Positions 28,061-30,035 of a stretch of DNA of 64,000 bases are shown one piece after another. How positions within the stretch are numbered: the first letter of the stretch is position 1; each line of letters begins with the position of its first letter. The notes under the pieces were generated by a model. That model was not told the DNA's origin. It saw nothing but the letters and a program-made list of their open reading frames with translations, and did no database searches. The position numbers and the translations under genes were made by a program. This DNA comes from Bacteroidota bacterium (GTDB taxonomy: Bacteria; Bacteroidota; Bacteroidia; 2-12-FULL-35-15): the NCBI GenBank assembly GCA_025963775.1, contig JAOQAD010000002.1, positions 29,203 through 93,202 of the forward strand, given 5' to 3'.

Positions 28061-28825
28061 TTATTTGTTCCAGGTCCTCCAGGCTTCTTCTGCCTGTTGT
28101 TTCAGCATCGACAGCCCGTTTACAACAGAGGCGCCCTGCGCTTTTCCGCGTTTCATAAATTCTGTTTCGGCCGGATTGTAAACAAGGTCATATAATAAAT
28201 GGGATGCGGCAATGTATTGATAAGGAATTTCCGGTGCTGCATGTACATCCGGGAACATTCCTACCGGTGTTGTATTTACAATAAGTTTGAATGCACGGAT
28301 GATGTATTCGTTCAGCTCATCATACGAAAATACCTTTTCGCTTTTCGCGGAAGATTTATCCCTCGTCACAAAATAACAATCGATCCCGATCTCTTTCAGC
28401 ACATGATGCACCGCTTTGGAAGCACCGCCGGTGCCAAGGATCAAAGCCCGCTCATGCTGCGTTTCAAGAAAAGGCTTGATGGATTGCCGGAAGCCATACA
28501 CATCCGTATTGTAGCCTGTTAAGTGGGAAGGCTGGAGGCCGGAGGCTGCTGAGATTTTAATACAGTTGACGGCTCCAACAGCTTTTGCCGTTTCATCGAG
28601 TTCGTCCAGGTACGGGATCACGCTTTCTTTGTAAGGGATGGTTACATTCAGCCCACAGAGCCCGGGATTATCCTTTATGAGCTGCGGAAGCTGGCTGATG
28701 TCAGTGATCGGGTACAATTCATATTCGCAATCTGTCCTGTTCTCTTTTTCAAACTTTTCAGTGAAGTATGCTTTGGAAAAGGAGTGGGAGAGAGGATAGC
28801 CGATGAGTCCGTATTTTTTCTGCAT
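28061..28825 (-). CDS. aroE: shikimate dehydrogenase
   Basis: YGLIGYPLSHSFSKAYF; GLNVTIPYKESVI; GAVNCIK; LILGTGGASKAV. Confidence 0.94.
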   Translation of the reverse strand: MQKKYGLIGYPLSHSFSKAYFTEKFEKENRTDCEYELYPITDISQLPQLIKDNPGLCGLNVTIPYKESVIPYLDELDETAKAVGAVNCIKISAASGLQPSHLTGYNTDVYGFRQSIKPFLETQHERALILGTGGASKAVHHVLKEIGIDCYFVTRDKSSAKSEKVFSYDELNEYIIRAFKLIVNTTPVGMFPDVHAAPEIPYQYIAASHLLYDLVYNPAETEFMKRGKAQGASVVNGLSMLKQQAEEAWRTWNK

Positions 28826-28828
28826 GTT

Positions 28829-29974
28829 TTATTTACTGTAAGGGCGGTTAAAGAACTGCTTTTTAAACCATAATTCAAAAGCGGGATCAAGAAATTCGTA
28901 TTCGCCGTTCATCTCGTGGATAAGGTCGCTGTTGATGAGGATCTGTTTGTTCTTGCTGACATTCCGCGGGGTACCCAATTGATAATCCTGCATCACCGCA
29001 GTGCTGGTAAATTTCGTTTCTTCTTTTGCAACGGCCTTTAATAAGTTGATCTGCGTGTTGCTCAGGTTTTCCACTTCGTTCTGGTACAAAGGCGTGTTCG
29101 CCTGGATCAGCTCCTTCAGTGCTGCTTCTATTTCTGCATTCCCGGCCTTTCTTTGTGTAAGGTTCCATGTGTAATGCGCCAGCTGCTGCACATACCAGGA
29201 GTGGTTCTTCATCAGCTGCGGAATGCGCGCTGCAACCTCTTCCGGGATCTGCTTCCCCGAGCTGCCGAAGCTTTTGCAGATGAAGCTGATCCATTTTGCT
29301 GTATCGATCTTCTGCAATAAAAGAATGTCGCCGAAGCGGTAAAAAGGCTTGGACACGTTGTTGAAAATGTCCGTCATCATGTGGCGCTTGCTGCCGTACA
29401 GGCAATAGGTAACGGAATGATGGCGCTGCCAGCAGGCGCGCATCTTCTTTTCAAAATCGGTGTAGGAAGAGAAGTTGGAGATGTTCTGGAACTCATCGAG
29501 GCAGATGATGAAGCGGATGCCTTTCTTCTTCGCAATGGATTCGGGAAGGTCGAGCACTTCCTGGCTGTGTTTTTTAAGCTCCTTCCAGTCGAAGCTCAGG
29601 CTGAAATCCGTTTCTTCAAAGCCCATGCTGAATTTTGGTACCAGCTTTTTGAAAAATTCCTTTCCTGTATTGATCCATTCCTGCCACCTGGTGGAGGAGG
29701 CTTTGAGGACTTCCCTTGCAAATAATTCAAGGAATTCCTCTTCGCTGCTCACCGAAAAAAGGTCGATGATCACGGTTTTTGTCTTCTTTTCCTTTTTGCC
29801 GATCTCGCGGATCACCTTTTCCACGAGCGATGATTTACCCCAGCGGCGCGGGGAAATGATCATGGTGTTGATACCGTTGAGCAGGTTGCTCTTCAGCTTT
29901 TCTGTTTCCTTTTCCCTGTTGGTGAAGGAATGTGTGCTGACCGTGGTACCGTAAATAAATGGAGAGTCTTTCAT
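28829..29974 (-). CDS. AAA ATPase of the archaeal-ATPase (PF01637-like, STAND/MNS) type with C-terminal winged-helix-like region
   Basis: Walker A SPRRWGKSSL; Walker B RFIICLDEFQN; YGSKRHMM sensor-like motif; C-terminal INLLKAVAKEETKFTSTAVMQDYQL...LINSDLIHEMNGEYEFLDPAFELWFKK. Confidence 0.9.
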   Translation of the reverse strand: MKDSPFIYGTTVSTHSFTNREKETEKLKSNLLNGINTMIISPRRWGKSSLVEKVIREIGKKEKKTKTVIIDLFSVSSEEEFLELFAREVLKASSTRWQEWINTGKEFFKKLVPKFSMGFEETDFSLSFDWKELKKHSQEVLDLPESIAKKKGIRFIICLDEFQNISNFSSYTDFEKKMRACWQRHHSVTYCLYGSKRHMMTDIFNNVSKPFYRFGDILLLQKIDTAKWISFICKSFGSSGKQIPEEVAARIPQLMKNHSWYVQQLAHYTWNLTQRKAGNAEIEAALKELIQANTPLYQNEVENLSNTQINLLKAVAKEETKFTSTAVMQDYQLGTPRNVSKNKQILINSDLIHEMNGEYEFLDPAFELWFKKQFFNRPYSK

Positions 29975-30035
29975 GTATAAATTTTATACTTAATGGTATT
30001 ATACCACATGGTATAATACCCAAAGGTATAAAATA
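29975..30035. promoter_or_regulatory. array of GGTATWATACC palindromes (probable operator or iteron array)
   Basis: GTATAAATTTTATAC 29975-29989, GGTATTATACC 29995-30005, GGTATAATACC 30010-30020, half-site GGTATAAAATA 30025-30035. Confidence 0.75.

Follow-up and report, generated by a model that had tools for sequence, protein, structure and literature searches.

The window (the whole stretch of DNA analysed here, 64,000 nucleotides) contains a gene for a solo ATPase on the minus strand, with an aroE-like gene behind it and a set of tandem inverted repeats in front of its start codon. The features are listed below in window coordinates.

28061..28825, minus strand: aroE-like gene, shikimate dehydrogenase (named from sequence), a few bases past the ATPase stop codon; order kept in other carriers of the genus
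28829..29974, minus strand: solo AAA+/winged-helix ATPase of 381 aa, ATPase_2/AAA_14-like (open reading frame, Pfam and fold match)
28850..29065, minus strand: predicted C-terminal winged helix, residues ~304-375 (AlphaFold2, pLDDT mostly > 90)
28931..28969, minus strand: predicted recognition helix, residues 336-348, with R337 and K341 sharing one face (model and residue-base covariation)
28952-28954, minus strand: K341 codon, within the recognition-helix segment
29976-29990, no strand, centre 29983: palindrome GTATAAATTTTATAC, imperfectly phased, adjoining the start codon and overlapping dyad 3; not conserved in relatives (sequence and alignment)
29986..29999, no strand: putative operator dyad 3, ATACT-TAAT-GGTAT, nearest the ATPase gene (sequence, dyad scan and family register)
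30001..30014, no strand: putative operator dyad 2, ATACC-ACAT-GGTAT (sequence, dyad scan and family register)
30016..30029, no strand: putative operator dyad 1, ATACC-CAAA-GGTAT, farthest from the ATPase gene (sequence, dyad scan and family register)
30021..30028, minus strand: predicted Bacteroidota -7 box TACCTTTG (TAnnTTTG), inside dyad 1 (consensus match)

The repeat unit is a 14-bp dyad, ATACY-N4-GGTAT, which together with a 1-bp linker gives a period of 15 bp; each half-site is 5 bp long. Three such dyads occupy positions 29986-30029, just upstream of the minus-strand ATPase gene, and the 62 bp preceding the start codon read ATATTTTATACCTTTGGGTATTATACCATGTGGTATAATACCATTAAGTATAAAATTTATAC-ATG on that strand. 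The palindromes GGTATTATACC (29995-30005, centre 30000) and GGTATAATACC (30010-30020, centre 30015) are exact, and a half-site GGTAT lies at 30025-30029. These two centres agree with the original prediction, which had placed the palindrome nearest the gene at about 29982; the centre of that one is at 29983, and the proposed spacings of 18, 15 and 15 are 17, 15 and 15 when measured. The in-phase element within the GTATAAATTTTATAC stretch is the half-site ATACT at 29986-29990.

The window was scanned for three tandem units of a 5-mer, N4 and the reverse-complement 5-mer at a 15-bp period (maximum score 30). The array at 29986 scored 29; elsewhere in the 64 kb, the highest independent score was 23. 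Among 100 dinucleotide shuffles of the window the top score was 25, and among 3000 shuffles of the local 400 bp it was 24. The array in the window is thus real and far beyond chance.

The domains of the ATPase were named from predicted secondary structure and fold matches. Its AlphaFold2 model (mean pLDDT 91.7) consists of an AAA+ core, a lid and the C-terminal winged helix that had been suspected from the sequence and is now predicted with high confidence. Foldseek retrieved 2qen (E 5e-16) and 2fna (E 2e-13) with a TM score of ~0.7, both sharing the AAA+ core and C-terminal winged helix, followed by Orc1/Cdc6 proteins; the profile match to 2fna had an E of 8.5e-17. In Pfam, AAA_14 was matched at E 2.8e-6 and ATPase_2 (PF01637) at E 6.6e-6, the latter below its curated cut-off (26.5 vs 33.2 bits); all 29 aligned homologues match ATPase_2 at E < 0.01 and several are above the cut-off. 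All 29 homologues share R43, R44, G46, K47 and the stretch DEFQ without variation. The dN/dS of ~0.04 between close relatives indicates that the ATPase is under strong purifying selection.

Arrays across the ATPase family

Of 198 relatives, 48 had homologues of the ATPase, and many named genomes, almost exclusively Bacteroidota or Ignavibacteria, had them as well. Upstream DNA was read for ~140 homologues, with start codons assigned by rule and half-sites extracted automatically, and 99 non-redundant homologues were used in a period test. The best upstream self-match was exactly 15 bp in 82 of the 99 and 30 bp in a further six. The 15-bp peak was absent from shuffles and from 307 neighbour-gene upstreams subjected to the same test. 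About one tenth of the homologues had no clear array by the automatic test. A 14-bp period was confined to a distant protein clade (N-terminus NPF...GY...FCDRE), where 13 of 15 members peaked at 14 bp because the spacer is N3 rather than N4. Nearly the whole sampled family therefore has private arrays, and the lead is wider than had been thought; orthologues lacking the motif, which would have spoken against the original prediction, are not the pattern found, as the orthologues carry the array.

Complete dyads of the ATACC-N4-GGTAT type begin and end 72 of 88 family arrays, compared with a single array that has GGTATWATACC-type dyads at both ends, which shows that the GGTATWATACC palindromes are junctions between neighbouring units. 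The earlier choice of GGTATWATACC as the repeating unit was hence half a unit off. Array size was four, six or eight half-sites in 19, 46 and 7 of the 88, corresponding to two to four dyads. Half-sites vary from member to member (ATACC, TAACA, TTACA, TAATA, TAACC, TTACC, ATACT, AAACA, ATACA and others), and the ATACC type tracks the protein across host families. In genomes with several copies, the intact copies read differ in half-sites or spacers, a difference that by itself is not significant with the present sample.

Several arrays deserve separate mention. Two Bacteroides fragilis loci (L070 and L072), from a genetically tractable genus, have a clear array of ATTATACATTGATGT repeats. A member of the 14-bp clade (L191, G450:C60) has an unusually long array, with about six ACGTA-type units, well over the two to four dyads that are usual. 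Visual inspection of six plasmid homologues from other phyla revealed no clear array, with one possible exception: an apparent 14-bp repeat, AATACTAAACTCTA, lies upstream of a distant homologue on a Vibrio plasmid (L205), which implies that the arrangement may extend beyond Bacteroidota.

The motif was also searched for in whole genomes. In the genome of origin (3.3 Mb searched, 65% complete), the tandem pattern occurred at the ATPase only, plus one match with two mismatches elsewhere; two other exact GGTATWATACC sites were both inside long open reading frames. In each of the seven genus carriers searched, an intact tandem array stood solely before the ATPase gene, and the four genus genomes without the gene (L151, L157, L168 and L172) had no intact array anywhere. 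The search for further motif clusters that had been proposed thus found the array to be unique to the ATPase promoter in the seven carriers, and in neither carriers nor non-carriers of the genus was the motif equally common at unrelated promoters. A regulon was rejected, as no further arrays were present in the seven carrier genomes.

Probable recognition of the half-site by the winged helix

In an unbiased scan, every column of the protein was scored for its association with half-site bases 1, 2, 4 and 5. Residue 341 ranked first in the whole protein for base 5 (normalised score 0.64, next 0.25), and it also came first for base 4 (0.46). Residue 337 was the top column for base 1 (0.42), and residues 321 and 335 were the top columns for base 2 (0.40 and 0.36). 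The recognition-helix region (334-350) had a mean score of 0.35, compared with 0.08-0.10 outside the winged helix. The relationship at residue 341 is simple: Lys341 goes with C/T at base 5 in 46 of 46 arrays and Arg341 with A in 24 of 24, and the rule was seen within several half-site backgrounds (ATAC-, TTAC-, TAAC-, AAAC- and TCAC-). Eleven of the 99 15-bp-call arrays departed from the register rule; the scan was run without them, and they were re-examined later. Among well-formed arrays outside the scan, including those of the 14-bp clade, Lys occurred with C/T in 9/9 and Arg with A in 7/8; the residue-to-base code therefore largely holds in held-out arrays.

The changes were also counted on a phylogenetic tree (one tree, parsimony) built from the AAA+ and lid part alone, with the winged helix excluded. 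The class of residue 341 changed ten times and that of base 5 nine times, with eight changes on the same branch (p ~2e-11). The two residue-only changes were single tips, one a protein cut at a contig end (L052) and the other a shortened copy on a long branch (L095). The counts for base 1 were weaker than for base 5 and again pointed to helix residues 336 and 337; those for base 2 were also weaker and did not single out the recognition helix.

That the array is read by the ATPase itself is indicated chiefly by the covariation between residue 341 and base 5. Self-targeting, as originally proposed, is strongly supported by the orthologue arrays, their exclusivity and this covariation, and we consider it very probable that the ATPase binds its own array directly. 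Covariation and exclusivity together point to the recognition of its own operator that is expected of an autoregulated transcription factor.

Promoter position and regulation

TAnnTTTG is the -7 consensus of Bacteroidota promoters. Such a box was present in 78 of 88 family upstreams compared with 85 of 307 control upstreams, and in the alignment of close relatives TTTTATACCTTTG is nearly invariant. The array overlaps the box in 28 of the 78 cases and ends within 25 bp upstream of it in 39 (67 together); ten boxes are upstream of the array. In the clade of the window, the array covers the -7 box and extends downstream over the predicted transcription start.

This arrangement bears on whether the palindromes might function at the RNA level, as a hairpin of the 5' UTR. 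The strand does fold well (-21.9 kcal/mol, z -4.5), as any tandem palindrome would. However, the array of many homologues precedes the -7 box and would be missing from the transcript, the central pair is mismatched (A/A) in most relatives, the number of units varies, and no Rfam family scored above threshold. A hairpin would not be expected to covary with a DNA-recognition helix either. An RNA element was rejected on these grounds (array position, mismatch, unit-number variation, fold context and Rfam), and we regard it as scarcely credible.

A second question is the direction of control. STAND-type regulators often activate their own genes, and the ATPase might bind the array and activate its own gene as a positive feedback switch. 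The 39 arrays that end at most 25 bp upstream of the -7 box would allow contact with the polymerase. An activator, too, could sit near a promoter, and this counts against repression, as do the ten boxes upstream of the array. In addition, IniR, a fold relative with an SSO1545-like ATPase domain, binds and induces the iniBAC promoter (PMC5760070). On the other hand, the array of the window clade covers the predicted start, a position from which activators seldom work, and activation seems unlikely to us, if the least unlikely of the alternatives.

Repression is the better match to the site position. Occupancy of an array that spans the -7 element and the predicted start should block RNA polymerase, and we think it reasonably likely that the ATPase represses its own gene. 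The winged helix would read 5-bp half-sites (ATACC in the window) in inverted pairs, probably as one dimer on each 14-bp dyad, with the three neighbouring dimers, 15 bp apart, bridged by AAA+ contacts. Occupancy would then limit the ATPase to a low level that it sets itself. Cooperativity might be set by the AAA+ domain, and ATP state or a ligand could release or tighten binding. Taken as a full explanation, the private operator of the ATPase has a probability of about 0.8 in our estimate; the array, its exclusivity, its co-inheritance with the gene, the fixed spacing and the residue-base covariation are the supported parts of it.

Gene history, possible roles and known systems

In the genus carriers examined, the ATPase gene is directly upstream of aroE. 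The ATPase stop and the aroE-like gene are only a few bases apart (28825-28829), so aroE expression in this genus may be set by the array as well, and the two genes are possibly co-transcribed. Non-carriers retain relics at the same place: a decayed array in L151 and L168, and an array with a truncated ATPase remnant upstream of the aroE position in L172. Vertical descent with repeated loss fits these relics, and the array appears to decay once the ATPase is lost, as none of the four non-carriers has an intact one. The fourth non-carrier (L157, G019) looks different: it has lost the ATPase, and what is left of the array, itself partly decayed, directly abuts the start codon of aroE, as though aroE had come under the former ATPase promoter.

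The identities of ATPase and AroE were 75% vs 53% for G102, 69% vs 45% for G084 and, by contrast, 47% vs 56% for G132. Copies in some other families are unusually similar, which suggests that the array-ATPase pair has likely been transferred between families. No conserved neighbour (toxin, antitoxin or other partner) was found family-wide. A mobile cassette was rejected in view of the genus relics and the lack of a conserved transposase or integrase partner, and phage or plasmid cargo was rejected since homologues are rare on plasmid and phage records.

These observations also bear on the idea that an Orc/Cdc6-like ATPase uses the array as an iteron-, origin- or partition-like site of nucleation or maintenance, or that a mobile cassette lands there, with gene control being secondary. 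The fold similarity to Orc1/Cdc6 proteins, the repeated loss of the ATPase and the other-family copies that are more similar than AroE of the same genomes agree with it. However, this is a solo chromosomal gene that is often lost, it has no conserved replication partner and is rare on plasmids and phages, and the array is always at the promoter of the gene itself. We consider such a role very improbable.

In four loci of another genus of the same phylum (L136, L137, L140 and L143, genus g138), open reading frames of 1300-1900 aa fuse the ATPase/winged-helix module with a TIR and an NTPase-like region, and AT-rich repeats of ~14 bp are present upstream. PADLOC listed a ThsB-like TIR match at the L137 fusion. 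TIR fusions in such very distant relatives, together with this match, hint at a role in immune-type signalling, as a lead only. The ATPase of the window itself had a weak 56-residue PADLOC match to the candidate family PDC-S01 (23.2 bits) and no convincing whole-protein match to a known anti-phage defence family. It is conceivable, if rather doubtful, that the array is a scaffold for a defined oligomer of an immune-like STAND ATPase, with several mutually orthogonal copies, and that disturbed occupancy (for example by invading DNA) would be the signal sensed.

Returning to the private operator, a large uncharacterised ATPase family gains a testable DNA target. The target of each member can be read from its own upstream DNA, which provides ready substrates and predictions; single mutations such as K341R should re-target the ATPase, and distinct ATPase-operator pairs might be used in Bacteroides genetics. 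For the widespread solo ATPase_2-type ATPases, no function was found described in the open-access literature, and we likewise found no described DNA target for this ATPase, in line with the original prediction.

The best structure and profile matches are the archaeal ATPase_2 proteins SSO1545 (2fna) and PABY2304 (2qen), which have the same overall fold, an AAA+ core with an RRxGK Walker A and a C-terminal winged helix, at only ~18% identity; no DNA target of either was found described in the open-access literature. Orc1/Cdc6 initiators also combine AAA+ and winged-helix domains and bind repeated origin boxes. Here, by comparison, the boxes stand at the promoter of the gene itself without origin context, and the gene is dispensable, having been lost in several genomes of the genus, unlike an essential initiator. 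Phage CI, TetR-like and antitoxin repressors have private palindromic operators over their own promoters, and their operators and recognition helices coevolve. The system described here resembles them in both respects and differs in that the binder is an AAA+ ATPase and the dyads are contiguous, with a clade-fixed period of 15 or 14 bp. The mycobacterial signal-transduction ATPase IniR (818 aa) combines an SSO1545-like AAA+ ATPase domain with a MalT-like sensor domain and a LuxR-type (SdiA-like) DNA-binding domain and regulates transcription (PMC5760070). It differs from the ATPase of the window in that it controls iniBAC and is not described as acting on itself only (PMC5760070).
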